Both the position numbers and the translations under genes were made by a program. From Oncomelania hupensis (taxonomy: Eukaryota > Mollusca > Gastropoda > Littorinimorpha > Pomatiopsidae), in NCBI GenBank assembly GCA_036898135.1, contig CM072513.1, positions 89,411,066 to 89,475,065 of the forward strand: a DNA stretch of 64,000 nt. Reading direction: 5' to 3'. The notes beneath the pieces were generated by a model. It did not search any database, was not told the DNA's origin, and worked only from the letters and a program-made list of their open reading frames with translations. Position 1 is the stretch's first letter. Each line of letters opens with the position of its first letter. Shown one piece after another: positions 8,332 through 48,129 of the stretch.

Positions 8332-9756
8332 CTATGATGATTCAGACAGTTTTAGTCGCTTCAGAGCAGGCTCTTTGGTTGACCGAGGGGTTGATGCACG
8401 GCAGTGATTTTTCAGAAAAATGTTGGACAAAATCCTTGCATGCCGATCCTCCATTCCAAGCTGGAAGATGTCTGACACTGTCATCGCCATCTCACAGAAA
8501 GATTTCCTACACACAAAGTCCTTCACAACACTGAAGAGAATGAAACAAAATATGGTCCACTGGCACGCTCGATCAGATGGTATTTTGAGGCCACCTCTGT
8601 CTAAAGAGTCTGTGTATGCACCAAATTTCTCATGATAAAATGTTGTTTGCTCAAGCTGACTTTCATCCACCTCTGGGTCATTCAGAGTCACAGAGCCAGC
8701 AATGTACACCAGGATAGACTTGGTCTCACAAGAAACTGAATCTTCCAGCAGCTCCAAATTGTCCACAGTTTCACATGTCTTCTCATCTGACTCAATCTTG
8801 AAGCTGCAGTCAGTGCAAAAATGGCCAGAATTTTCAACGTTGAAGAGACTCTTGTCTGTCCTAAGGGCAAGAAGCAGCTTTGCTCTGTCCACATTTGACT
8901 TCTCAACAACTTGCTGAACATTGATGAAGTAGGTTCCTCCTGATCCCTGTCGCAGCTTGCTGAACGCCTTCTCCAGTGGATCTGAGAAAAACTGGCCAAG
9001 CAGTACATACTGATGGGAAGAAGCTGACGGCAGAGAGCCACAAGGCCGTTGCAGGTGTGGTAGATCGCTTGAGCTGTGTCTCGCGTCAGCTGCTTCTGCC
9101 TCTTGCCTTGCTTTCCAGCCATCTGAAGGGCCATGTCTCCAAACTGCAAAAGTGTTGATAGCCTGCTGTCGCACGAGTCACTGATAGCAGCTTGAAGGAT
9201 GTCGTTGTGTCGAACGTCCATGTACTTTGACTTGACGTTGACAATCTTCCACCAAGTTAGCACTTTGTGAATGAAATTGCAGTGTCTGCTGCACCATCAA
9301 CATTCTCCATGCATATAGTGTGTCACATACACATTGCGTGTCCTTCATTTCACAAAAAGAAACTGCGTCCTGCTCCAAGAAGGCTGCAAGTTGGTCTTCC
9401 TCTATGTTTCTCTGAGAGCACAATGCACGCTTTGTTGTGCGAAGAGGAAGGGCAGGGGTGGGGATTTGGCTTAATGGAACATTTGTCCAAACAGATGGAT
9501 GATCTAAAGGGCGGAGTTTCCCATATTTGCTGATAGTTTCAAATTCTGAAGGCCACTGCAGTTCACATATCACAGTGTCTTTGGAAACAGTCATGTTGGC
9601 GTTTGGAATCGCAGAAATCCATGCCTGTTTCGCATTCTCTTCCTTTGGAAATCTGAACACAGACACTTTTTTACTCGCTTCGCGTTCTTTTTCAGAGTTT
9701 GCATAGTTTGTTTTGCAGCCGTACACACAACATATCTTGCCCATGATGAAACACAA
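8332..9756 (-). pseudogene. P-element/THAP9-like transposase remnant
   Basis: The minus-strand frame from 9756 has MGKICCVYGC about four residues in. It continues with the THAP-type zinc finger features FRFP, AW and VICELQWP, then the GKLRP-LDHPSVW segment typical of P transposases. The catalytic RNase-H-like core is absent. After a frame change near 9250 comes a C-terminal block (TWWKIVNVKSKYMDVRH, LTRDTAQAIYHT). After another near 9000 comes LLGQFFSDPLEKAFSKLRQ and GGTYFINVQQV, again P/THAP9-like, ending LKRLKLSESS and a stop. The histidine expected in the last THAP metal ligand pair (C-x2-H) reads Q. With two frame changes, a missing core and a lost ligand, this cannot code for an active transposase. 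Confidence 0.8.
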
Positions 9757-10093
9757 CTGCTGGAAACTATTGAAGATTGAAGATTATTTTATTAAGAACA
9801 GAGTGCAGTAGCATGCCACTTTGTAAAAGCGGATGTTGACACGAACTAACAACTTACCGAAAATAAGACAAAACTCAGACACAACAACATACGTAATCGA
9901 TATAATTTTGCGGCTTAAATAACAGTTTTATCTCACACTAATCAAATACAGTGGTTTGGGAAGGAAAATGGGTTATATAAAAATAAAAAAATGTCGAATT
10001 TGAAATCCTAAGCGACTTCATTTTGTGCTGCGGTAATAAGTTTGATCGCTAGCGTTTTAGGTTTTTCACGAGTTGCTTCCCTTCATTTCTTCG

Positions 10094-17874: not shown

Positions 17875-20469
17875 TTACTGGACGGGGACGAATTCTGGTG
17901 CTGTGGCCCTTAGTTGTGTTGGGTGGGCGACAGCTGCTGTGTCCTCCACGAGATGGCGACTGAGGTAGTCGGCTCCGTGGTTCTCTTTGCCGGGGATGTA
18001 CTCGATCTGGAATGAGTACGCCTGAAGGGTGAGTGCCCATCTCATCAGGCGAGAGTTCAAGGATTTGGAGGCTGCCAGGAACGATAGTGGTTGGTGGTCC
18101 ACCTGAACTGTGAAGTGGGTCCCATACAGGTAGAGTTGAAACTTCTGTATGGCCCAGACTAGTCCAAGGCATTCTTTCTCCGACGTGGCGTAGTGGGTCT
18201 CGGCGGGTCTCAATTTTCTGCTGGCGTAGGCGACAGGGAATAGCGTCTCTGCATTCTTGGGGTCGCGCTGTAGCAGTACTGCTCCGAGGCCTAAGTCGCT
18301 TGCGTCGGTGCGAAGAACGAATGGCTGAGTCAAATCGGGTAGGTGGAGTACTGGCGCCGATGTCATTCTGTCCTTGAGTGTTTGGAATGCTGTCTCGCAT
18401 TCCGCTGTCCAAACTACTTTGTCCGGGGCGATTTTCCGGGTTCCATTTGTCAGTGGTACGGCGATGCTGTTGTAGTTGTGGCTGAACTTCTGGTAGAAGC
18501 CGCAGAGTCCTAGAAACGACTGCACTTCCTTCTTGGTCTTGGGCCTAGGAGCGTCGAGTAGGCGTTTCACTGTCTTTTCTACCGGTCGCAGGCTTCCTTG
18601 ACTGATGGTGTGTCCCAGAAATTCTAGTTCTGTGAATCCAATCTGACATTTGGTGGGTCTTGCCGTCAATCCTGTGTCTCTGAGGCGTGCGAGTAGTTGT
18701 TGTAGGAGCGTGACATGTTCCTCCCACGTAGGTGTTGCGATGAGGATGTCGTCCATAAACGAATGTAGGTGCTCGCTGCTCAGGGGTGCCAGGAGTTTTC
18801 GCATCATGGCACTGAAGATGCTGGGTTCGTTGTGGAGTCCGAATGGAAGCACGTTGAATTCGAAGTGTCCTTCCATAGTGCTGAAAGCTAGGTACTTTCG
18901 GACTTGTGGTTGTACTGGTATCTGGTAGTATCCTTTGCTGGGGTCGATGCGTGAGAAGTACTTCGCTCGCTGTAGCTTGGCAAATAGGTAGGTCTGGTCC
19001 GGGAGTGGCTCTGGCTGGAACTGCGTTACCGCATTCAGGAGTCTGAAGTCGATGCACAGTCGATGCTCTCCGTTGGGTTTTCGCAACAATACCGTGCCTG
19101 CGCTGTAGGGTGAAGTAGACTCTGAGATGATTCCGGCTGCCAGTAAGGTGTCTATCTCTTCCTTGATGGCTCGCTGCTGAGACAGTGGCATCGGGTAGAG
19201 CTTCTGGCGGACGGGTGTTGGGTCGGTCACCGTTAAGGTTACTTCGACGAGGTCTGTCCTCCCTGGTCGGTCTGTGAGCACAGTCTGATGTTGGCGAATG
19301 ACCTGTCGTACTTGCTGTTGCTGTTTAGCGGCTAGGTCTCCGTTGAGTATCACGTCTTTGTAGGTTTCTTTGGAGTGCAGGGGATACTCTACTGCATTGG
19401 TCTCCATGCTTTCTCCTTCTTCCGCGATGGCGATGGCTAACAAGTTGTGAGTGCTGGGGGTCGCTGGTCGGTCCGTATACTTCTTGAGGAGATTGATGTG
19501 GTGGTATCGGGCTCTCCCGTTCACCTCTACTTGGTAGACTGTCTTGGATTTCTTGGCAGTCACCCGGTACGGTCCTCTCCAAGCGATGTCCAGCTTGTTG
19601 GTTCCACTTGGAAGTAAGAGTAGCACTTGATCGCCGACTTGCAGTTCTCTGTCCTTCGCGTGGCGGTTGTAGTACTTCGCCTGACGGGCTCTTGCCTTCT
19701 TCAGTGCTTCACCAGCCTTCTTCCACGTTGCTTTGAGGGTTTCCTGCAGGTCTGCGACGTACTTGGTGGCACCTCTTGGTGTGTCGTCTATCTTGGCTTC
19801 CGTCCAACTTCTGCGTAGGGCTTCTAGCGGTCCTGCTAGAGGTCTGCCGAATAGCAATGTTGACGGGGTGTAGCCTGTGGCTGCATGGGGCGTTTCTCGG
19901 TATGCGAACAGTGCCGCATTCACGTAGGTGTCCCACGCTTCTGGATTGTCGTCGGCGACTTTCCTGAGTATGGTGAGAAGGGTTCCATTCAGTCTTTCTA
20001 CTTGTCCGTTGCTGGCTGGGTGGTATGGTGGTGTGCGAATGTGATGAACTTGTATCAACTCGAACACGTCTTGCATCAGGCGGCCGGTGAACTGAGATCC
20101 GTTGTCCGTTCTAATGCTGTCCGGGAATCCGACTCTGGTAAAGATGGCGATGAGTGCATCTGCAATCTTCTTGGTGTCGATCGCTGGCAACGTGACTGCT
20201 TCGCACCACATCGTACATGCGTCGACGAGTGTGAGTAGAAATCTGTTCCGCTTCTTGGTCATGGGCAGTGGTCCTACTATGTCTACTGAGACTTGCTGGA
20301 ATGGCACGCCGACTACTACTGATGGTCCTAAGGTAACTGGTACGGTGTGATGTCGCGGGGAATATCGTTGACATTGGTGGCAAGATTTCACGTAGCGCTT
20401 GACATCCTCCGTGATTCCTGGCCAATAGTAGTGTGCGCTGATTCTCTGCACTGTGGCTCCAATTCCCAT
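17875..20469 (-). pseudogene. pol: Pol part: integrase, reverse transcriptase, RNase H
   Basis: 864 codons. Integrase first: the end of the H2C2 zinc domain (CHQC near residue 30), a catalytic core with D in VDIVGPL (about 62), D in TDNGSQF and E in NGQVERLNG with exactly 35 residues between the last two, and then a GPY/F-type module (WRGPYRV). Reverse transcriptase follows: LCIDFRLLN, RIDPSKGYYQI, PFGLHNEP and the catalytic FMDD (YxDD-type, with F for Y). RNase H closes it (RTDASDLGLG, TSEKECLGLVWAI, VQVDHQPLS, IPGKENHGADYLSRH), ending EFVPVQ and TAA. All catalytic acidic residues are present. The first methionine of this frame is not a natural start: the frame belongs to the same polyprotein as Gag and is separated only by the one-base insertion. 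Confidence 0.9.
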
Positions 20470-20473
20470 GTGG

Positions 20474-22402
20474 TCCGCTGAGTGGCATGCTGTGGCCTAG
20501 TTCTAGTACTTGGGCTCGAAGGGTGGCTGGTAGTACTAGTTGGGTGTGATCTCCATCTCCTTGTCGATGTAGAACTCCCTGTTCCATGTAGAAGTCTCCC
20601 TTGTGCGGGGGTGTGTGCGCCTTGGGTAGCTTCTGGAAGCACTTCGCTATCGAGGTGTCTTCTTTCTGTGCTGTTTTGATCTCTTCGAGTCCTGGATTCG
20701 GAGCGAACTCGGGCTGGGGTGGTTGGGTTTTAGCTTGGGCCCTGGTTTGCACTGCAGCTATCTCTACAGTTTTCGGGGGCGTGCCTAAGAACACATACCT
20801 ACAACCTAGCACTAGATCATACAGGGGTTTCTGTAAAACAGCTGCTTGGATTCGTCCTGTGACGTACCTACTCTCTACTTCGATCCAAGCTATTGGGCAA
20901 GTAGTCGTCGGTTTCGTCAAGTCTGCTCCTTGTAAGTCGACTGTCTTGTCCGTCAAGTCCGCGCGCGATACAAGAGATTCGCTAACTATCGCGTCGTATG
21001 ATAGACCTGTGTCATACAGACAGTTCGCTTCTTTACCGTTGACCTTGACCGTGTCTGTCACCGATGGGTGATCTCCGATAGTGTGTGGCTTGTTACCGCT
21101 GCTTTGAGTTAGAACTCTGTGCGCTGGCCGGCTTTCGCGCTCCTCCCTACGTTTTGCGGCCAACTTGAAACATTCTGCGGTGGAGTGATTGTTTCTGTTG
21201 CAGAACGAACAATACCGTCTCTGTTCTGCGGGACCTCTTTTCCCGAATTCCGTGTTGGGTCCTTTATTCTGCCCAGGTCTGGGGTTATTCGGCTTATTCG
21301 CGGTGCGCTCTTCCCGGTTAGGGCTTCGTTTCTGTGCCTCTTTCCCGTTAGGCTTTAGGTCTCGCCTGAAGCTCTTGGCTTCTCCGTGTGCGGCCACGTA
21401 CCTATCTGCGACCTTGACCAGATCTTCCAGTCTTTCCGCGCCCTGCTCTACTGAGAATGTTCTCAGCTCGGGGGTCATGGTTTCCCGTAGCTGTTCCCAT
21501 ACTAACAGTTCTGTCAGTCCATCATACGTTTTAGCCGTGGCTGACTGGCTAATCCACTTATCCAGCATTGTGGACAACCGATCCGCGAACTGCGCATAGC
21601 TCTCTCCTTTCACTCTCCGATTGGTGCGGAACTTTTGCCGATAGCATTCTCCTGTTAGTTCGAATCCCGTTAGGAGTGCCTCTTTTACCTTGTGATAGTC
21701 AGTCACTCTGTCAGTCGGTAGCTTACTGTAGATGTCATAAGCCTTTCCTCTAAGCCCTTGACTAAGCTTAAAAGACCAATGAGTGGGATCTAGTTTGTAC
21801 TCTGTTGCTAGACGCTCAAACCTAGTCAGATAGAGATCTAGACCTTCCTCTCTCTCATTGAATGTTCCCAGTGGAAATGACATTCCTTGTACAGGGTTGG
21901 ATGCTACCTCTAGCTGATCTGAATGGGAAGGGGTTGAGGAAGAACTTGAAGCTCCTGATCCCAATCTTCTTAGCTCTAACTCATGCTGTCTTTCTTTTTC
22001 CTTTTCTTCCCTCTCTTTTTCTTTTTCTGCCCTCTCATACTCCCATTTCCTAACTTCTGCATCTCTCTCTGCTGCTAATGCTGCCTTCTTCTGTTCTCCT
22101 TCTAATTCTAATTTCTTCTGTTCTCTTGCTGCTTCTAACTCTGCTTTCTTTTGCTCTGCTTCTAATGCTAGTTTCTTCTGCTCTGCTTCTAATGCTAGTT
22201 TCTTTTGCTCTGCTTCTAGTTCTGCTTTTCTCTGTTCTGCTTCGAGTTTCTTCTGTTCTCTCTCGGCTGCTCTCTCTGCCTTAGCCTCCTGTTTCTCTAC
22301 CTCTGCATTGATATACGCAATTAGGTCTGCCCCTGCTAAGTGTAAAGCTTCTCCTAGTTCCTTGAAACGCAATCTCAAGGCCACTGGGTCCGACATTGCC
22401 AA
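20474..22402 (-). pseudogene. gag-pol: Gag-protease part with start of integrase zinc domain
   Basis: Starts MAMSDPVALRL at 22402, 362 bases inside the 5' LTR. The order is a short N-terminal region (LGEALHLAGADLIAYI), a long K/E/Q coiled coil of near-repeats (about residues 45-150), a SCAN-like capsid (LDLYLTRFERLA, VKEALLTGFELTGECYRQKF, GESYAQFADRL; about 175-285), a CCHC zinc knuckle (CSFCNRNNHSTAEC, about 395) and an aspartic protease with active site LYDTGLS and YDLVLG. It then enters the integrase H2C2 region. After the extra base at 20472-20473 the frame continues as unrelated residues to 20111. The sister copy at 37481-52242 lacks that extra base, so it arose in this copy or a close relative. 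Confidence 0.9.
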
Positions 22403-22747
22403 ACGTGTCTATGAACAACCTCTGAATCACGTGGAATACCAAAACACTAGCAATATTGCAATTCAATAACAACAATGCAAAGACCATAAACTTCTCAATC
22501 AATAATAGAATAAAACAAGAGTCAAATGGCACACAACAGTTATTTAAGCAAAACCTGCAAAAGAACAATGCAACATACAGGCACAAAAATATTTGAAGCA
22601 AAAAAGTTTTTAACTAAAGAATAGTGCACCCAACTGATCAGTCCTTGTTACCACTATTCTAAGTTATTCTACTACTCCTACTGTTATCTAATTTTATTGT
22701 ACTTAGGTCCGGTTATACCCAATTCCTATTATACACAGATCCTAGCT

Positions 22748-26469: not shown

Positions 26470-27182
26470 TAAAAAATTATTATCACACTAAACAAGGATA
26501 CAATTATTATCACATTAAACAATGATAAAATTATTATCACATTAAACAATGCTGAACTTACTATCACAGTAAACAATGATAAAATTATTATCACATTAAA
26601 CAATGATAAAATTATTATCACATTAAACAATATTAAAATTATTATTAAATTGAACAATGATAAAATTATTATCACATTAAACAATGATAAAACTATTATC
26701 ACATTAAACAATGATAAAATTATTATCACATTAAACAATGATACAACTATTATCACATTAAATAACTATAAAATTATTATCACATGAAACAATGATAAAA
26801 TTATTATGACATTAAACAATGATAACATTATTATGACAGTAAACAATGATAAAATTATTATCACATTAAACAATGATACAAATTATTATCACATTACACA
26901 ATGATACAATTATTATCACATTAAACAAGGATAAAATTATTATCACAATAAACAATGATAAAATTGTTATCATATTAAACAACTGTAAAATTATTATCAC
27001 ATTAAAGAACTGTAAAATTATTATCACATTAAACAATGATACAATTATTATCACATTAAACAATGATACAATTATTATCACATTAAACAATGATACAATT
27101 ATTATCACATTAAACAATGATACAATTATTATCACATTAAACAATGATACAATTATTATCACATTAAACAATGATACAATGG
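26470..27182. repeat. 27-bp minisatellite, about 26 copies
   Basis: Unit close to ATTATTATCACATTAAACAATGATA(A/C)A(A). The period is a multiple of three, which keeps long poly-(NVIIIVSLF) frames open on the minus strand; these are artefacts. The last eight or so copies are almost identical. Confidence 0.95.
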
Positions 27183-34665: not shown

Positions 34666-34736
34666 GTAAATAATACTACATTTGCAGGAAACACAATGAG
34701 TTATTTCTTCATTCATATTAATTAATAAGGTAAATA

Positions 34737-34753
34737 TATATATATATATATAT
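34737..34753. repeat. short (TA)n at left edge of the ribozyme array
   Basis: Eight TA units. A much longer (TA)n bounds the array on the other side. Confidence 0.9.
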
Positions 34754-34875
34754 GGGGTATTTTCATAGTGAGACTGGCTTCTTCCTAATGTGAACTTCTT
34801 AACGGGTGTCTTTGTGACTACCCAGGCAGTACATTTGGACTGCACTTAGTGTAGTCTATGCATTCAGGGCCAAAC

Positions 34876-34919
34876 CTCCTCTGATGAGATCTTTGGTAAA
34901 GATCGAAACGCGTCAGGAG
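34876..34919 (+). ncRNA. hammerhead ribozyme, unit 1
   Basis: In order: stem I strand CTCCT, core CTGATGA, stem II GATCTTT-GGT-AAAGATC (7 perfect pairs), core GAAA, a minimal stem III region CGCG, the cleavage triplet GTC (34912-34914) and stem I strand AGGAG pairing with CTCCT. All conserved core bases of a type I hammerhead are present. Stem III is only two pairs in one molecule, but ACGCGT is a palindrome and could form a longer stem between two copies, as known for newt satellite and Penelope-associated ribozymes. Predicted cleavage follows C34914. Confidence 0.85.
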
Positions 34920-35321
34920 AACCAGGCTTAATGAATGCAATTCTACTGCTTATTGAGCTCTTGTAGCTCATTAAGAAGCACATGGAATTGAAAGTCACTA
35001 TGTCTCACTTTTGTCCACCTTTGAGAGCAGGATAATTATTTTTCTGGTTTAAATTAACTTGCCTCCCTTGGCTTGTTTTTATTCCTTGTTCCTTAATGGT
35101 TGCTGTATGGTGCTAGCCATTTGGAGAGAATTTATATTACATTTTACAATTATTTGAAAACCATTTTCAAAGTAATTCTCTCGGTCGGCCCTGGTAACTG
35201 GGGTATTTTCATAGTGAGACTGGCTTCTTCCTAATGTGAACTTCTTAACGGGTGTCTTTGTGACTACCCAGGCAGTACATTTGGACTGCACTTAGTGTAG
35301 TCTATGCATTCAAGGCCAAAC

Positions 35322-35365
35322 CTCCTCTGATGAGATCTTTGGTAAAGATCGAAACGCGTCAGGAG
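35322..35365 (+). ncRNA. hammerhead ribozyme, unit 2
   Basis: Identical to the unit 1 motif and exactly 446 bp downstream. Cleavage predicted after C35360 would release a 446-nt monomer. Confidence 0.85.
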
Positions 35366-35767
35366 AACCAGGCTTAATGAATGCAATTCTACTGCTTATT
35401 GAGCTCTTGTAGCTCATTAAGAAGCACATGGAATTGAAAGTCACTATGTCTCACTTTTGTCCACCTTTGAGAGCAGGATAATTATTTTTCTGGTTTAAAT
35501 TAACTTGCCTCCCTTGGCTTGTTTTTATTCCTTGTTCCTTAATGGTTGCTGTATGGTGCTAGCCATTTGGAGAGAATTTATATTACATTTTACAATTATT
35601 TGAAAACCATTTTCAAAGTAATTCTCTCGGTCGGCCCTGGTAACTGGGGTATTTTCATAGTGAGACTGGCTTCTTCCTAATGTGAACTTCTTAACGGGTG
35701 TCTTTGTGACTACCCAGGCAGTACATTTGGACTGCACTTAGTGTAGTCTATGCATTCAGGGCCAAAC

Positions 35768-35811
35768 CTCCTCTGATGAGATCTTTGGTAAAGATCGAAA
35801 CGCGTCAGGAG
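35768..35811 (+). ncRNA. hammerhead ribozyme, unit 3
   Basis: Identical motif, 446 bp after unit 2, predicted cleavage after C35806. It lies in the incomplete last unit. Confidence 0.85.
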
Positions 35812-35937
35812 AACCAGGCTTAATGAATGCAATTCTACTGCTTATTGAGCTCTTGTAGCTCATTAAGAAGCACATGGAATTGAAAGTCACTATGTCTCAC
35901 TTGTGTCCACCTTTGAGAGCAGGATAATTATTTTTCT

Positions 35938-35942
<5 letters not shown>

Positions 35943-36030
<88 letters not shown>
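35943..36030. repeat. (TA)n microsatellite
   Basis: About 44 TA units directly joined to the truncated third ribozyme unit. Confidence 0.97.
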
Positions 36031-39370: not shown

Positions 39371-42300
39371 TTGGCAATGTCGGACCCAGTGGCCTTGAGA
39401 TTGCGCTTCAAGGAATTAGGGGAAGCTTTACACTTAGCAGGGGCAGACCTAATTGCGTATATCAATGCCGAGGTAGAGAAGCAGGAGGCTAAGGCAGAGA
39501 GAGCAGCCGAGAGAGAGGCAAAGAAATTAGAAGCAGAGCAGAAGAAACTAGAGTTAGAAGCAGCAAGAGAGCAAAAGAAACTGGAACTAGAAGCAGAGCA
39601 GAAGAAATTAGAAGCAGAGCAGAAGAAGCTAGAATTAGAAGGAGAACAGAAGAAGGCAGCATTAGCAGCAGAGAGAGAAGCAGAAGTTAGGAAATGGGAG
39701 TATGAGAGGGCAGAAAAGGAAAAAGACAGACAGCATGAGTTAGAGCTAAGAAGATTGGGATCAGGAGCTTCAAGTTCTTCCTCAACCCCTCCCCACTCAG
39801 ATCAGCTAGAGGTAGCATCCAACCCTGTACAAGGAATGTCATTTCCACTGGGAACATTCAATGAGAGAGAAGAAGGTCTAGATCTCTATCTGACTAGGTT
39901 TGAGCGTCTAGCAACAGAGTATAAACTAGATCCCACTCATTGGTCTTTAAGCTTAGTCAAGGGCTTAGAGGAAAGGCTTATGACATCTACAGTAAGCTAC
40001 CGACTGACAGAGTGACTGACTATCACAAGGTAAAAGAGGCACTCCTAACGGGATTCGAACTGACAGGAGAATGCTACCGGCAAAAGTTCCGCACCAATCG
40101 GAGAGTGAAAGGAGAGAGCTATGCGCAGTTCGCGGATCGGTTGTCCACAACGCTGGATAAGTGGATTAGCCAGTCAGCCACGGCTAAGACGTATGATGGA
40201 CTGACAGAACTGTTAGTATGGGAACAGCTACGGGAAACCATGACCCCCGAGCTGAGGACATTCTCAGTAGAGCAGGGCGCGGAAAGACTGGAGGATCTGG
40301 TCAAGGTCGCAGATAGGTACGTGGCCGCACACGGAGAAGCCAAGAGCTTCAGGCGAGACCTAAAGCCTAACGGGAAAGAGGCACAGAAACGAAGCCCTAA
40401 CCGGGAAGAGCGCACCGCGAATAAGCCGAATAACCCCAGACCTGGGCAAAATAAAGGACCCAACGCGGAATTCGGGAAAAGAGGACCCGCAGAACAGAGA
40501 CGGTATTGTTCGTTCTGCAACAGAAACAATCACTCCACCGCAGAATGTTTCAAGTTGGCCGCACAACGTAGGGAAGAGCGCGAAAGCCGGCCAGCGCACA
40601 GAGTTCTAACTCAAAGCAGCGGTAACAAGCCACACATCATCGGAGATCACCCATCGGTGACAGACACGGTCAAGGTCAACGGAAAAGAAGCGAACTGTCT
40701 GTATGACACAGGTCTATCATACGACGCGATAGTTAGCGAATCTCTTGTATCGCGCGCGGACTTGACAGACAAGACAGTCGACTTACAAGGAGCAGACTTG
40801 ACGAAACCGACGACTACTTGCCCAATAGCTTGGATCGAAGTAGAGAGTAGGTACGTCACAGGACGAATCCAAGCAGCTGTTTTACAGAAACCCCTGTATG
40901 ATCTAGTGCTAGGTTGTAGGTATGTGTTCTTAGGCACGCCCCCTAAAACTGTAGAGATAGCTGCAGTGCAAACCAGGGCCCAAGCTAAAACCCAACCACC
41001 CCAGCCCGAGTTCGCTCCGAACCCAGGACTCGAAGAGATCAAAACAGCACAGAAAGAAGACACCTCGATAGCGAAGTGCTTCCAGAAGCTACCCAAGGCG
41101 CACACACCCCCGCACAAGGGAGACTTCTACATGGAAGAGGGAGTTCTACATCGACAAGGAGATGGAGATCACACCCAACTAGTACTACCAGCCACCCTTC
41201 GAGCCCAAGTACTAGAACTAGGCCACAGCATGCCACTCAGCGGACACATGGGAATTGGAGCCACAGTGCAGAGAATCAGCGCACACTACTATTGGCCAGG
41301 AATCACGGAGGATGTCAAGCGCTACGTGAAATCTTGCCACCAATGTCAACGATATTCCCCGCGACATCACACCGTACCAGTTACATTAGGACCATCAGTA
41401 GTAGTCGGCGTGCCATTCCAGCAAGTCTCAGTAGACATAGTGGGACCACTGCCCATGACCAAGAAGCGGAACAGATTTCTACTCACACTCGTCGACGCAT
41501 GTACGATGTGGTGCGAAGCAGTCCCGTTGCCAGCGATCGACACCAAGAAGATCGCAGATGCACTCATCGCCATCTTTACCAGAGTCGGATTCCCGGACAG
41601 CATTAGAACAGACAACGGATCTCAGTTCACCGGCCGCCTGATGCAAGACGTGTTCGAGTTGATACAAGTTCATCACATTCGCACACCACCATATCACCCC
41701 GCCAGCAACGGACAAGTAGAAAGACTGAATGGAACCCTTCTCACCATACTCAGGAAAGTCGCCGACGACAATCCAGAAGCGTGGGACACCTACGTGAATG
41801 CGGCACTGTTCGCATACAGAGAAACGCCCCATGCAGCCACAGGCTACACCCCGTCAACTTTGCTTTTCGGCAGACCTCTCGCAGGACCGCTAGAAGCCCT
41901 ACGCAGAAGTTGGACGGAAGCCAAGATAGACGACACACCAAGATGCCACCAAGTACGTCGCAGACCTGCAGGAAACCCTCAAAGCAACGTGGAAGAAAGC
42001 TGGTGAAGCACTGAAGAAGGCAAGAGCCCGTCAGGCGAAGTACTACAACCGCCACGCGAAGGACAGAGAACTGCAAGTCGGCGATCAAGTGCTACTCTTA
42101 CTTCCAAGTGGAACCAACAAGCTGGACATCGCTTGGAGAGGACCGTACCGGGTGACTGCCAAGAAATCCAAGACAGTCTACCAAGTAGAGGTGAACGGGA
42201 GAGCCCGATACCACCACATCAATCGCCTCAAGAAATACACGGATCGACCAGCGACCCCCACCGCACACACATGGATGGCCATCGCCATCGCGGAAGAAGC

Positions 42301-42601: not shown

Positions 42602-44620
42602 TGTCATGGCTAAACTGTGGGAGAGGCGGAAGGGGTACCATTTCTTACAGTCGGACAGTGCAATGGTCAAGCCAAGCTGCGAAGTACAGAAAGGGCAGCG
42701 TTGTTTTGAACTAAACGGTACAATAACAAGATATTATTGTAGAGTCTAGGTCAAAGAATTGGCTAATAGATTATACAACTTAGCACGTGCTGAGGCCAAG
42801 GGCATGTTTGTGCCGAGTCTACCAACCAATCATTGGGCTCAAATTGGTTGCACAAATGCAGTACAGTGCTAGAACTAGGCATTCGTTGTTGAACTTGGGC
42901 GGCAAGCGGATCGTTAGAGGAGAGCAAGGAACAGAAGCCAAGAGGAGACATTAGAACTGGTAACCGGATTGTGGTCAAAGTGAAGACACCCGGGAGGTTA
43001 ATGAGTTATCGATAGCTAGGTAGCTGTCACTCATTTATGGAGCGTCATCGGGCGTGATCCATGTGATGTCGTCAAAGAGAAATCTCTTATCATAAGTCGG
43101 TAAGTGAGATTCGACCTCTGGAACCTTGTCTCTAGCGATCGTCAAAGAGAGAAAGGGGGAAAGAAATTATTTAGGGAGGGCTAGTAGCAAAAATGTGTGA
43201 ATGAGAATGTAACGTGGAAGTGTATGTTCTTAAACGTTTATAAAAATATGTTAATTGTTAAAATGTTATATTTAGAAATGTTTTCATGTTAAAACGTATA
43301 TTTTGTTGTAAATAATAAAATGATGAACGGAGGCAGTCAGCCAGAGTCAACAGAGAGAGGTGAAGAGAAAATTGTATATACCTGATAAAAACGGAACGAA
43401 TGTATGTTGAATATGTGAAATTTTTATAATGGTTGTATGCTGGATAAATCATATGAATATAACGGAATGGAAAATAAATTTGTGAATATATGTATTAGAG
43501 AAGTTATGACCATGACATTCTTCTTCAGGAGGAGGCGAGCAGACCAGGGTTAATTAGAGAAATAAATAGAGAAGTAAAATTATGCCAAAATAGTAGCCTG
43601 TACCTTTATTGATTTCAGGTTGGACTTCTTCTTCTTATTGTTATTATTATCATCATTGTTGGACGCGTCGTCAACGGGGCTTGTTGGTGATACCTGACTA
43701 GTAGTAGTCGTCTCTACGGCGGTTGGCTGTAGTGGTCATTCCTCGGGTCATCCGTGGAAGTGGGGGTTACGAGGTGAGGGTGCAGTGCCTGCCAGAGAAG
43801 TCATCTGGGGTCGGCGGAGAGAAGCAGAGAAGGAAGAGAGGGGAGAAATCAACGGAATTGAGGGGCCGTCTGGAAAGTGGATCATCAGTATTAGAAAGAG
43901 CAGAGACGTTCATCGGTAGTTATAGAAAGAAAGAATGGCACCACATTAGTTTTAGAAAGAAATTCGCAGTTTTGGACACAGGGACAAATAAAGACTTATC
44001 ATCCAGTGACTTTAGTTAAGATTGTGCGAAAATTCTACAGGGACAACGCCTACATCCATATTGGATTGTTGAACTGTGTGTGTGTGAACTTTGAACTGTG
44101 TGGGTGTGAACTTTAATTAGGGAAACAAAAGGGAAGTGCACAGCTGGACCTTATCATCAACGGCCGTGCACCTAGTGTGGATACGTATATATGTAACTGA
44201 ACTGGGGCATCAGGGGGGATTTTGTATTGTTATTTAATTATCATGGTGTATATAATATTTTGTGTGTGTGCGTGTTTAAATTAGAAACGACCAGGTGAGA
44301 GAGTGATTTTATTTTGATTCATGATTATGCCAATGTGTTGATTGTGTATGGTTTTGAACTATTTTATGCTTTAATTTTGTTTTTCCTTTTTTCTTTGGTT
44401 TCATTCTTTTGTTTCTTAATTGGGTTTTTTGATTACATGTTTTATTAAATAAATGTTATATTGTATTTTTACACTTTATTCCGCTAGTTGTGTTCTTAGT
44501 TTAGTTTAGTGGGAGAAAGGACGCTCGCACACGCATCACCCACCCCATCTACCCTATCACTCCTTGCATGAAGGACAAGTCACCTACTTTAAACACCAGA
44601 GGGAGGAAGTAGGCCTGACA
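42602..44620 (+). repeat. 5' LTR of the nested element
   Basis: 2019 bp. AATAAA-type signals occur (TTAAATAAATG near 44446). TGGTGGACCTGCGGGG at 44625, four bases after the LTR, is a candidate primer site for a tRNA ending CAGGTCCACCA. Confidence 0.9.
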
Positions 44621-45075
44621 AAAGTGGTGGACCTGCGGGGTACACAGGGGTACGTAAAAGAATCCGGGGGACAAACAAAAACACCGGGTACATACAGGGA
44701 AACATCAGCGTGTGGCGTGAGCGTTCAGGGGAAAGAGGGTAGTAGTTTAGGGACATAGAACGTAGTATTTTCTTTGTGTATGTGTTAGGTATAGATTTTA
44801 TATGTTGTTATTATGTTTGTAGCGGGGGCGTGTCTGTGAAGGGGTTTGTAGTGCGGGAGGGGTGTGTCAATCCTTTGTGGGGGGTCTCATTGTGGGATCG
44901 CAGGGGACAGGGTGCAGTGGTCGAATCTCGGTTCACGGCTAGTCGCGATAGCCAACCATTCGCATCGACAGCTCTAAACGTACAAAACAGCTCCAGGGGA
45001 TAAGAGGGAGGAACAAGTCCAAGCACGAAGGAGAATACTTGAGTAAATTGAAAGTGCGAGGAGTAGAGAGCCAAG

Positions 45076-48000
45076 ATGGCTCAACCGCACAATTTGCGAT
45101 CAGGTATGGGGAAGACAACCACTGGTCCTACAAGCGTGACAGCGTCGTCACCAGTTGCGACAAGTGTGCTCAGTCCGAGTACAGGCGCAGTAGGAGGAGG
45201 GTCAGTCACTGGCATAGGAGGTAGTAGGGTGACCGTAACACCGTCAGGAATAACGTCGAGGGCTTTAACAGCACCAACACCAACTAGAGGAGCAGGGAGG
45301 GGTGTGAGTAAGAAGGATTCAAAAGTTGTTCCAGGAAATCCAGATCCAATAACAGCCAAGTGGCAAAGATTAGCATTAGACTATGGATTAACGGGATCCG
45401 CAGCAGCAATATTCGTAGCACAGGGTGTGCAGACAGATGAAGATAAAGAAGCGAGAGAATTAGAGAGGCAGGACCGAATTAGGAAAGAAGAACTGGAACT
45501 GAAAGAACGAGTTCGAAAAGAAGAAGCAGATAGGAAGGAAAGGGAATTAGAAAGAAAAGAAAGGGAGCGTAGGGAGGAGGCAGAGCGGAAAGAAAAAGAG
45601 GCAGAGCGGAAAGAAAAGGAGGTAGAAAGACAAGAAAGAATTCGCAAAGAGGAGGAGGAAAGGAAAGAGAGAATTAGAAAAGATGACTTAGAGCTTCAAA
45701 AACTAAAACTGCAAGTAGACGCAGAGAGGGAACGTAGGGCACAGGAAAAGGAAGAACGGACTCGGAAGGAAGAACAAGAAGCCAAGGATAGGGAGGCTAA
45801 AGAAGAAAGGAACAGAGAAAAAGAAGAAGCCAGGGAAACTAGGGCTAGAGAAGAGAGAGATTTGAGAAGAGAAGAAGTTAGAATACTGAAAGAAAATAGT
45901 TCTTCTAACATTAGAATGGCACCTTTTGAAGGCAAAGAAAACATAGATACCTATCTTACACACTTCGAACGGGTAGCTACTCTGAATGAGTGGAGAAATG
46001 AATCATGGAGCAAGAAATTGGCACCATTACTGTTAGGTCCAGCTAGAGACGTGTACGTTCAAATGACACCTGAGGAAACCCAAGACTATCAAACACTGAA
46101 ACAGGCTTTACTGGATAGGTTCCGACGAAATGAGGAATATTACAGGAAGCAGTTCAGGACGGTAAAGAAAGAGGGCCCAGAATCATTTACAGAGTATCTC
46201 AAGAAACTCAGACACTTGTTGAGTAGGTGGTTTTGTATGGCCAAGGTCAATCCAGAAGATCCAAATGCAGTGATAGACTTATTCTTGAAAGAACAATTAG
46301 TGGAAAATCTAAACCCCGACTTAGAACTCTTTGTCCGAGACCATGCTCCGAAAACGGCAAACGAGGTGGCAGAATTAGCCGAGAAGCATTCCGTGGCGAA
46401 ATGGGAGACAAAAAGGTCAAGGTTCAGGTCACATAGGCAAGAAGAAAGAGGTGAATCAAACGAACGACCGGAGGAAAGAAACAGGAGTGCAAACAGACGT
46501 GAACAAAACGAAAGACCGGCAGAAAAGATTTGTTTTCATTGTGGCCAAAAGGGGCACGTCAAACGTGACTGTCAAAAACTGAAAAGGGCTAGTTTCGCTC
46601 GAGTGCAGTCGGGTCAAGTACACGTAACCTCACCAGGGGTCGAGGCCGACCGGGCGAGCATCAATGAAAAAGAAAGGGTAGAAGTGAATGGGGAAATAGT
46701 CACAGCGTTACGCGATACGGGGGCAGATGACGTTTTCGTAGCGGAACGGCTAGTAAATTCCGATGACATCATGCCGGAACGGATTAGCGTGTCGTTAGCA
46801 GACGGAACCGTGAGAAAAGCCAGACAAGCGATTGTCGACTTGCAATCGTCATACGTATCGGGAAAGATCAAGGTCATCGTATTCGAGAAGCCGGCGCAAG
46901 ACGTACTGATCGGAAACACAGTACAGTTCGCGAACGGAGACATTAAAACCATTCCCATCTTTCCAACAAGAAAAGCAGAGGCCGTGCGAACATGCGCGCA
47001 AGCCAAGAGGGAAAGCGCAGCAAAGATACATGCACCTGTCGAACCAATTCCAGGTCTAGCGATCAGTCCTTCTGAGCTAATTGCCATGCAGAAGGTGGAC
47101 AAAACTTTAGCACACGCGCTATCTAGTGTGGGAAATCCCGTAACCAACGGGCGAGGAAACGGCAAGGTACGGTACGAAGTACGTCAAGGTATATTGTATC
47201 GCGTTTATCAAGGTCACCGTAGGGAGTCCAAACAGATCTGTGTGCCGGAACCATTGAGGCAAGGTGTTATGCGCCTGGCGCACGATTCACCTATGGCAGG
47301 ACACAAAAATGCCAAGAAGACACTTGATCGCGCATGGTCAAAATTTTACTGGCCAGGAACAGAGTCAGACGTGCGTCGCTATGTTCAGTCGTGCGACCAG
47401 TGCAAGAAGGCCAAATCTAAGGATCAAATTCCACAAACGCCTACGGTAGATGCGCGACCTGTGAATGAAACATTCCAGAGGGTTGCCGCTGAGCTGGAAG
47501 CGTTGATAAAAACAGCGTCGGCATGCGTCGCAGCTCTGAAGGGCAAAATTGCAGAAGCTTGCGGATTAGCGAACCAGCAGACAGGGAAGGAAGGCACGAG
47601 ACACGAGGCGCGAACCATAAACGCCGCGACGGTAACTGTGGTGCGAGAACGGGAAGGAAACACACCCGAAATCTCTGCTGACGAGCAAAACTCAGCAAGG
47701 AATTTTTCAAGCAGTTCGACCGACTCGCCAACAAAGCAAAAAGAAGGGCAGTGTTGGTCAGCGTCACGCTTACGGCTGAAAGAGACGAAATTGTCTGCGA
47801 GGCCAGCCGAGGGCACGTTAGGTCACCGACAACGTAAATATCAGGGCCACACAGTCGGTAACGGTCGGATGACAGAAAGGCCAGACGAGGTTATAAAGAT
47901 CGGGGCCAGTACAAAGCCACGGACGGTGACGCAAGCGAGGTCAGTTCGGGGCATGGTCAAGGAGCACGAGCGTTTTGTACCACCATTAGCAGAAAGAGGG

Positions 48001-48129
48001 TTGCCTCTGATAGACTTATCGGAAGGGGGGCGGTTGAAACGAAATTTAGTTGCGACTTACAACTGCAGAACAGAAATCATCCCAGGGAAGTTGAATGTGG
48101 ACGCTGATTTTCTCAGCAGGAATCCATAG
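45076..48129 (+). CDS. gag: Gag-protease polyprotein with rearranged pol remainder, 1017 residues
   Basis: One uninterrupted frame. The start is in the context AAGATGGCT. In order: a Ser/Thr/Gly-rich N-terminus (1-90); a very long K/E/R coiled coil (about 125-275); a SCAN-like capsid (IDTYLTHFERVA, LKQALLDRFRRNEEYYRKQFR, about 285-400); a CCHC knuckle CFHCGQKGHVKRDC (about 485); an aspartic protease with LRDTGADDVFV (about 545) and QDVLIGN; the TCAQAK motif shared with the other elements; and an integrase H2C2 zinc domain (HDSPMAGH, FYWPG, CDQCKKAK). After FQRVA, where the integrase core should start, come about 180 residues without recognisable domain. The end is YNCRTEIIPGKLNVDADFLSRNP, the tail of RNase H. 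It could make particles and process them, but cannot copy itself. Confidence 0.85.
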   Translation: MAQPHNLRSGMGKTTTGPTSVTASSPVATSVLSPSTGAVGGGSVTGIGGSRVTVTPSGITSRALTAPTPTRGAGRGVSKKDSKVVPGNPDPITAKWQRLALDYGLTGSAAAIFVAQGVQTDEDKEARELERQDRIRKEELELKERVRKEEADRKERELERKERERREEAERKEKEAERKEKEVERQERIRKEEEERKERIRKDDLELQKLKLQVDAERERRAQEKEERTRKEEQEAKDREAKEERNREKEEARETRAREERDLRREEVRILKENSSSNIRMAPFEGKENIDTYLTHFERVATLNEWRNESWSKKLAPLLLGPARDVYVQMTPEETQDYQTLKQALLDRFRRNEEYYRKQFRTVKKEGPESFTEYLKKLRHLLSRWFCMAKVNPEDPNAVIDLFLKEQLVENLNPDLELFVRDHAPKTANEVAELAEKHSVAKWETKRSRFRSHRQEERGESNERPEERNRSANRREQNERPAEKICFHCGQKGHVKRDCQKLKRASFARVQSGQVHVTSPGVEADRASINEKERVEVNGEIVTALRDTGADDVFVAERLVNSDDIMPERISVSLADGTVRKARQAIVDLQSSYVSGKIKVIVFEKPAQDVLIGNTVQFANGDIKTIPIFPTRKAEAVRTCAQAKRESAAKIHAPVEPIPGLAISPSELIAMQKVDKTLAHALSSVGNPVTNGRGNGKVRYEVRQGILYRVYQGHRRESKQICVPEPLRQGVMRLAHDSPMAGHKNAKKTLDRAWSKFYWPGTESDVRRYVQSCDQCKKAKSKDQIPQTPTVDARPVNETFQRVAAELEALIKTASACVAALKGKIAEACGLANQQTGKEGTRHEARTINAATVTVVREREGNTPEISADEQNSARNFSSSSTDSPTKQKEGQCWSASRLRLKETKLSARPAEGTLGHRQRKYQGHTVGNGRMTERPDEVIKIGASTKPRTVTQARSVRGMVKEHERFVPPLAERGLPLIDLSEGGRLKRNLVATYNCRTEIIPGKLNVDADFLSRNP

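Follow-up and report, generated by a model that had tools for sequence, protein, structure and literature searches.

A hammerhead-bearing 446-bp repeat of Oncomelania hupensis and the two-ended anatomy of its insertions into TA microsatellites

The window analyzed here, a stretch of 64,000 nucleotides from the genome of Oncomelania hupensis, contains a tandem array with a period of 446 bp, which Tandem Repeats Finder places at 34753-35943 with 2.7 copies and 99% matches. The array (~34754-35943) comprises 2.68 units between two TA tracts, its laps run head-to-tail without an LTR arrangement and show three differences in lap-to-lap comparisons, and the GC content is 0.395. Its features are compiled in Table 1, in which units are numbered from A34915, the base after the predicted cut. 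An earlier note on this DNA described three hammerhead copies exactly 446 bp apart and no encoded protein; both statements are borne out by identical 44-nt strings at all three positions and by the longest frame wholly within the array, which has only 70 codons.

Table 1. Features of the window array and insertions within units at other loci (positions are those of the window or, where a locus is named, of that locus)
Feature	Positions	Strand	Remark
Left (TA)n tract, target-side flank	~34734-34753		Abuts array 5' end at unit position ~285
First lap, 5'-truncated	34754-34914	+	Unit positions ~285-446
Hammerhead copy 1	34876-34919	+	Predicted cleavage between C34914 and A34915
Hammerhead copy 1, parts	Stem I 34876-34880/34915-34919; core 34881-34887; stem II 34888-34904; GAAA 34905-34908	+
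First complete 446-nt unit	34915-35360	+	Predicted cut to predicted cut
Site A in first full unit	35047-35054	+	Unit positions 133-140; outer end recurring among insertions across the genome; putative reverse-transcription start
Site B in first full unit	35145-35146	+	Unit positions 231-232; second recurrent outer end; putative reverse-transcription start
Hammerhead copy 2	35322-35365	+	Predicted cleavage after C35360
Second complete unit	35361-35806	+
Hammerhead copy 3	35768-35811	+	Predicted cleavage after C35806
Last lap	35807-35943	+	Terminates at site A against right TA tract
Right (TA)n tract	35942-36030		Putative primer side of target
Insertions at unit positions ~385-399	L042 2294-2495; L043 2558-2606, 3064-3259; L047 2647-2766; L057 2297-2409; L016 1366-1474; L033 653-1144

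Other features of the window include retroelement frames with SCAN, aspartyl protease and integrase domains at 17875-22408 (-), 39925-42006 (+) and 45067-48129 (+), the first of which additionally has reverse transcriptase/RNase H domains; we take these frames to be gypsy-like. At 44069 and 49686 lie identical 22-bp tandem pieces, possibly belonging to LTRs ~5.6 kb apart, and a frame with a THAP domain at 9178-9783 (-) possibly derives from a DNA transposon. Minisatellites are located at 26473-27180 (27 bp x 26) and 2228-2596 (24 bp x 15).

Each copy of the 44-nt motif (CTCCT-CTGATGA-GATCTTT/GGT/AAAGATC-GAAA-CGCG-TC-AGGAG) contains a stem I of 5 bp (CTCCT/AGGAG), a stem II of 7 bp with a GGT loop, and a complete core (CTGATGA...GAAA) with the GTC cleavage triplet. 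The initial description of a complete hammerhead therefore holds for the core and for stems I and II, but not for stem III, which is not stable and consists of a single A-U pair closing a palindromic CGCG tetraloop. Because of this weak helix III, the ribozyme is predicted to act best as a dimer; for axolotl repeats of the single-pair type, poor cutting alone and good cutting as dimers are described (PMC7229834). Within the window, the pattern CTGATGA-17 nt-GAAA has exactly three matches, all inside the array and in one array polarity only. With up to one mismatch allowed there are five, compared with a shuffle mean of 1.97, and five of 100 shuffles reach this number.

The earlier note had listed the lack of a significant covariance-model score as a refutation of its reading, and this applies in part: scores were returned, but all of them below the gathering threshold. 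No Rfam hammerhead model reached its gathering score over the window, and HH9 gave 21.8, 21.8 and 21.3 bits for the three motif copies against a gathering score of 52 (E 0.016-0.023 for 1301 bases), its alignment adding a further outer part of stem I (GCC/GGC) in each copy. A genome search with RF00163 yielded one match, at C9:39.59 Mb, and says little, since only 73 of 157,261 candidates were scored. The predicted fold of the 56-nt motif, in which GAUG of the core is paired with CGUC, is not better than those of shuffles (z -0.98), and the predicted fold of the whole unit also pairs part of the hammerhead core. Folded as a circle, the 446-nt unit reaches -135.2 kcal/mol compared with -103.3 +/- 6.3 kcal/mol for 60 shuffles, and its RNA, if circular, is predicted to be highly self-paired.

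Conservation of the motif was assessed in 21 loci chosen independently of the core, namely 20 loci from the unit search and the window locus, with loci picked by the exact core excluded. The core is intact in 89 of their 92 laps; the possibility that it might be mutated in most genomic copies, on which the earlier reading would have foundered, is thus not what was found. Variants fixed within a locus occur at none of 924 hammerhead sites and at 48 of 7730 other sites (Fisher 0.008, the sites being not fully independent as subfamily variants recur); most simply, variants present in all laps of a locus are those of the copied RNA. Variants confined to single laps are likewise rarer in the hammerhead (6 at the 924 sites, four of them hitting the core, compared with 109 at the 7730 sites elsewhere), all of these within-locus counts omitting unit columns 126-141 and 226-241. 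Among 18 distinct sequences, three have C-G in place of U-A at one pair of stem II, and covariation in this stem does not exceed that of shuffles.

With one unit as query, at least 193 matches were obtained in the host genome (1.45 Gb, 428 contigs), and the core pattern CTGATGAGN{6,20}CGAAACGCGTC returned 379 matches, whereas the reversed control pattern returned none. Short dispersed arrays or array ends are present on each of the scaffolds C1-C17, and the copies are near-identical and range from dimers to multimers. Interpretation of the 446-bp repeat as a retrozyme-like element, as first proposed in the earlier note, is supported by these dispersed, near-identical copies, by the intact cores, by the unit fold beyond that of shuffles and by the TA-tract targets described below.

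The anatomy of the insertions was analyzed at 49 places, comprising 20 loci from the unit search, 12 loci from the core pattern, the window locus and 16 core-pattern places on C1; these represent at most 48 insertions, because L033 and L034 represent the same duplicated stretch (96.6% identity over 2.1 kb). At 30 of the 49 places the left arm is on the minus strand and the right arm on the plus strand, so that the arms lie head-to-head with their 3' ends outward, while the reverse order is found at two. Arms range from ~0.1 to 6.4 laps in length, and some insertions, including that of the window, have one arm only. The outer ends recur at two sites of the unit, site A (~133-140) and site B (~231-232), which are ~98 nt apart, and lie mostly against TA tracts. 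Wherever both ends of a place fall on A or B, one is an A end and the other a B end (18/18, binomial P 4e-6); since an end was scored only if the leftmost arm was minus and the rightmost plus, the outwardness of these 18 is given by definition, and direction is tested by the arm order (30 vs. 2) and by the pairs of end patterns. No poly-A tail was seen at the A and B ends inspected, with one copy, L059, being A-rich there.

Searches with end patterns extended this rule beyond the 49 places. In C1-C5, 69 A and 46 B ends form 24 neighboring pairs within 8 kb, all 24 of them outward, 23 mixed and one A/A; 44 A and 23 B ends in these scaffolds are partnerless by the strict patterns. Across C1-C17, to which end pairing was restricted with exclusion of other scaffolds, 40 neighboring pairs were obtained, with 37 outward, 38 mixed and 36 both (binomial 6e-10 vs. 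0.496), A ends being derived from a broad pattern through C1-C5 and into C6 and from a stricter pattern only beyond. The four exceptions are one A/A pair, two same-direction pairs and one inward-facing B/B pair. At C13:32174526-32174687, two inward-facing retrozyme B ends, each abutting TA, are separated by ~107 bp and probably represent two insertions in one tract. Short insertions into the unit itself recur at positions ~385-399 (TCTATGCATT) in several loci (Table 1), which suggests a hotspot of insertion; in both L042 and L043 one and the same tRNA-like SINE is flanked there by copies of GTCTATGCAT and is missing from other laps.

The flanking TA repeats had been suggested as a possible target in the earlier note, and the comparison of the 49 places agrees with this suggestion. 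A (TA)5 tract is found at both ends of 24 places, at one end of 17 and at neither end of eight, compared with 29 of 6269 background windows, and the eight places that lack it hold diverged copies throughout, none above 93% identity. As insertion ends lie within TA tracts, target-site duplications cannot be delimited. In pairing with a TA primer, positions near A and B match five of eight bases; only 43 of the 446 unit positions attain this value, although five exceed it. With respect to TA pairing, both sites thus rank within the top tenth without being the best, so that AT-richness may help in their choice. Start sites in Penelope-type integration are not chosen by homology with the cut DNA; here, simple annealing of a TA primer does not single out A and B, nor does it speak against them.

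By anatomy, the element would group with the metazoan retrozymes, for which a non-coding tandem unit of 150-450 bp with one type I hammerhead each, a GC content below 50%, a strongly self-paired unit, the presence of Penelope-like elements in the same genome and, in axolotl, a weak palindromic helix III are described (PMC7229834). It differs from them in that the arrays are mostly head-to-head doubles with two fixed alternative ends in TA tracts; the words "inverted" and "microsatellite" are absent from the main text of that article. Target-site duplications of metazoan retrozymes, when present, exceed 4 bp; any duplications of the 446-bp repeat would be hidden in the TA tracts. Metazoan retrozymes are further characterized by self-cleaving hammerheads, by linear and circular RNAs in tissues and by the lack of a primer-binding site and a polypurine tract. 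The newt and salamander repeats share the single-pair helix III, the palindromic tetraloop, a unit of a few hundred bp and dimeric action, which is predicted for the 446-bp unit, but their unit measures 330-350 bp and a two-end rule is not part of their description (PMC7229834). Plant LTR retrozymes are likewise hammerhead-processed, non-autonomous retroelements with a proposed circular RNA; according to PMC7229834, they carry type III hammerheads, LTRs, a primer-binding site and 4-bp target duplications, in contrast to the type I hammerhead and the lack of an LTR arrangement found here.

Closer parallels for the arms and ends are provided by the Penelope-like elements. Penelope insertions show pseudo-LTRs accompanied by an inverted pseudo-LTR next to them, in a mostly head-to-head arrangement; one of the inverted repeats may carry a tail, and the joint is formed by microhomology (PMC3846280). 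The activity of a Penelope protein in vitro comprises cleavage and extension of both strands of AT-rich targets, with copying starting at two internal sites which bound the tail (PMC11167929). No difference in start sites between the strands was seen in that work, which speaks against a complete correspondence. The 446-bp repeat thus shares with these elements an inverted partner arm, a tail at one end, short-homology joints, AT-rich targets, two putative internal start sites, tandem organization and a hammerhead motif (PMC3846280; PMC11167929), and sites A and B may be read as the start sites of copying. The repeat lacks a reverse transcriptase/GIY-YIG ORF and is hence not a Penelope-like element; in addition, its two ends are ~98 nt apart compared with reported tails of ~30-40 bp, and its 7-bp stem II and extended stem I stand in contrast to the minimal Penelope form. 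The retrozyme copies reproduce the anatomy of Penelope insertions on a protein-less unit.

Metazoan retrozyme repeats are described as carrying no conserved motif that reveals their partner (PMC7761336). The partner reverse transcriptase that the earlier note had envisaged was sought in the genome by a GIY-YIG search, which found long frames. One of them, the L072 piece, codes for 317 aa with GIY-YIG and has 129 genome matches, 12 of which (including L072) are full length (317 aa) with 96-100% identity and no stops, so that the family is evidently recent. Relatives carry PF01541 and some PF26215. Reverse-transcriptase-like motifs, including CDVISLYP, MGP and FRDD, were read by eye, in the order typical of such an enzyme, just upstream in three relatives (P0005, P0020, P0022), but Pfam detected no reverse transcriptase in seven relatives; a search of solved structures with one relative recovered the GIY-YIG part only. 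The designation "Penelope-like" is therefore a reading of the architecture.

In its outward geometry, its ends at TA tracts and its hammerhead-like motif, this family resembles the 446-bp repeat. The motif, by our own reading of L072 and L073, lies downstream of the frame and occurs 187 times in the genome; no Rfam hammerhead match was obtained in the motif region of L072 and L073. Among 100 listed motifs, 20 close pairs are present, 18 outward and two tandem, the latter with spacings of 4445 and 4521 bp. Copies end against TA tracts, and in 14 outward pairs the TA-tract end was found on one side in seven, on neither in seven and on both in none, a distribution not significant alone. A short second end of this family was not found (nine raw matches at three places). 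Frames of the family also occur as outward pairs at C12:31771093 (-)/31776900 (+), C4:47738070 (-)/47739786 (+) and C16:16892165 (-)/16898043 (+), and copies whose arms are tandem or inverted lie, among other places, near C1:94.911-94.917 Mb and C4:47.737-47.742 Mb.

Overall homology between the Penelope-like tail and the retrozyme unit is not significant, with 273 of 1000 shuffles scoring as high. For the last 40 nt of the Penelope-like sequence before the TA tract, the best local matches to the unit lie in windows ending at 232-234, which corresponds to site B; this match ranks tied first of 892 (both strands) with L072 and with L033, ranks 2 and 6 globally, and reaches 2.3% in a shuffle test that is one of three comparisons. 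A resemblance of the Penelope-like tail to the unit at site B is thereby hinted at. At C1:70.66 Mb and C5:25.55 Mb, no more than 0.4 kb separates Penelope-like motifs from retrozyme ends, and in L033/L034 they lie across a TA tract. A retrozyme insertion in L042 (3646-4618) adjoins or lies inside a Penelope-like ORF (86% to L072 424-1380), and in L030, just right of 1571, CTGAAGAAG, which resembles the start of the Penelope-like hammerhead motif, adjoins a retrozyme copy.

We consider it probable that the array in the window is a retrozyme-like insertion, for which a predicted self-cut, circular RNA would have been copied into a TA microsatellite by a Penelope-like enzyme. In this model, transcripts would cut themselves at the hammerhead into 446-nt units, which would be closed into circles. 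A Penelope-like reverse transcriptase/endonuclease would open both strands of a TA tract, and from the two strand ends copying would be primed inside the RNA, at A for one end and at B for the other. Each copy would cover ~0.1 to 6.4 laps of the template, and short homologies would serve to join the two cDNAs. At the window locus only one arm (2.68 laps), putatively primed at A, is present, and its far end directly abuts the remaining half of the TA tract.

The relationship between the arms was examined by comparison of 189 laps from 40 of the 49 places, with exclusion of arms below 90% identity or shorter than ~60 nt. Laps differ by 0.41% within one strand of a locus, by 0.71% between its arms and by 1.99% between loci. 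Arm-fixed non-consensus bases were scored at 36 distinct sites in 14 loci, with unit columns 126-141 and 226-241 omitted; at 34 of these sites the opposite arm has the same base in all of its laps, compared with 6.8 expected (48 of 50 when counted by comparisons, in which some sites are counted from both arms); for rare arm-fixed variants, 13 of 15 are shared where 0.15 are expected. As far as can be judged from the sequences, both arms of an insertion are copies of the same RNA sequence, because their fixed variants are common to both at 34 of the 36 sites. One template per insertion is not certain everywhere, since the two variants missing from some laps of the opposite arm both lie in L051, and in L053 the difference between the arms reaches 0.81% although one of them consists of identical laps; at these loci, two closely related templates are possible.

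The inner joints, at which the two arms meet, lie at changing unit positions, and the arms stop at an equal position in only one of 30 cases (L054); eight of the 29 unequal joints have stops within 28 nt of each other. Overlaps of at least 2 nt are present at 19 of the 30 joints, against a chance of 0.17 each, these being upper values, as BLAST ends may run on by chance. Self-priming by fold-back was set aside as an origin of the second arm because inner stops are unequal at 29 of the 30 joints and the outer ends differ.

The lap comparisons also bear on the nature of the template. The arms may instead derive from Penelope-type integration in which an existing array was transcribed into a long linear tandem RNA that served as template, with the hammerhead trimming 5' ends or being dispensable; we regard this as the strongest competitor, although as a rather less likely one. 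For Penelope itself, unprocessed RNA is reported as the main template in vitro, and insertion proceeds without an active hammerhead (PMC11167929). Homogeneous laps would be equally expected from the transcript of a homogeneous donor array. However, near-identical long arms such as that of L048, with 4 differences in 5990 compared bases over 5.69 units, or one arm of L053, with none in 2550, would demand donors of the same homogeneity, and of the non-consensus sites in the arrays, 78 vary among the laps of an arm and 82 are common to all of them. Moreover, the absence of fixed variants from the hammerhead is expected if cleavage matters.

A mobilization by LINEs with twin priming, in which a regular and an internal start generate an inverted 5' part, appears unlikely. 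Twin priming yields the same outward geometry, and its second start is variable. The retrozyme ends, by contrast, fall on A or B with one of each in all 18 informative places, and the ends inspected are free of poly-A apart from the A-rich copy mentioned above. Still less probable is a viroid-like RNA that replicates from RNA to RNA and is copied into DNA only occasionally: the stable fold and the circle-sized unit with its ribozyme would suit such an agent, and RNA-RNA replication has been named as a possible source of sequence heterogeneity (PMC7229834), but the hammerhead resides in one array polarity only and integration is site-specific and repeated hundreds of times. A conventional satellite origin, with a passive hammerhead and spread through unequal crossing-over or the reinsertion of DNA circles, would account for tandem copies of fixed length, but we find it hardly credible in view of the dispersed short arrays, the fixed ends A and B, the outward arms and the arm-shared variants, which are unexpected from DNA recombination.

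Within the preferred model of a circular RNA copied by a Penelope-like enzyme, the one-of-each rule may have a simple mechanistic basis. We hold it about as probable as its opposite that in animal retrozymes at large a Penelope protein complex holds one RNA circle and that A and B are obligatory starts, one for each opened TA strand. If true, every insertion would be an outward pair of rolling-circle cDNAs, one with and one without the 98-nt tail, and the optional tail of Penelope elements would be a trace of the same rule. Retrozymes as such are already known. The two-site integration signature, consisting of paired outward arms with one A and one B end in TA tracts, was not found in a literature search and appears to be new as far as this search goes. 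The ends, arms and shared variants constitute a genomic footprint of the integration step, which points to a Penelope-type enzyme and to the derivation of both copies of an insertion from the same RNA sequence, and the one-A-one-B rule lends itself to tests in further genomes and with purified protein.
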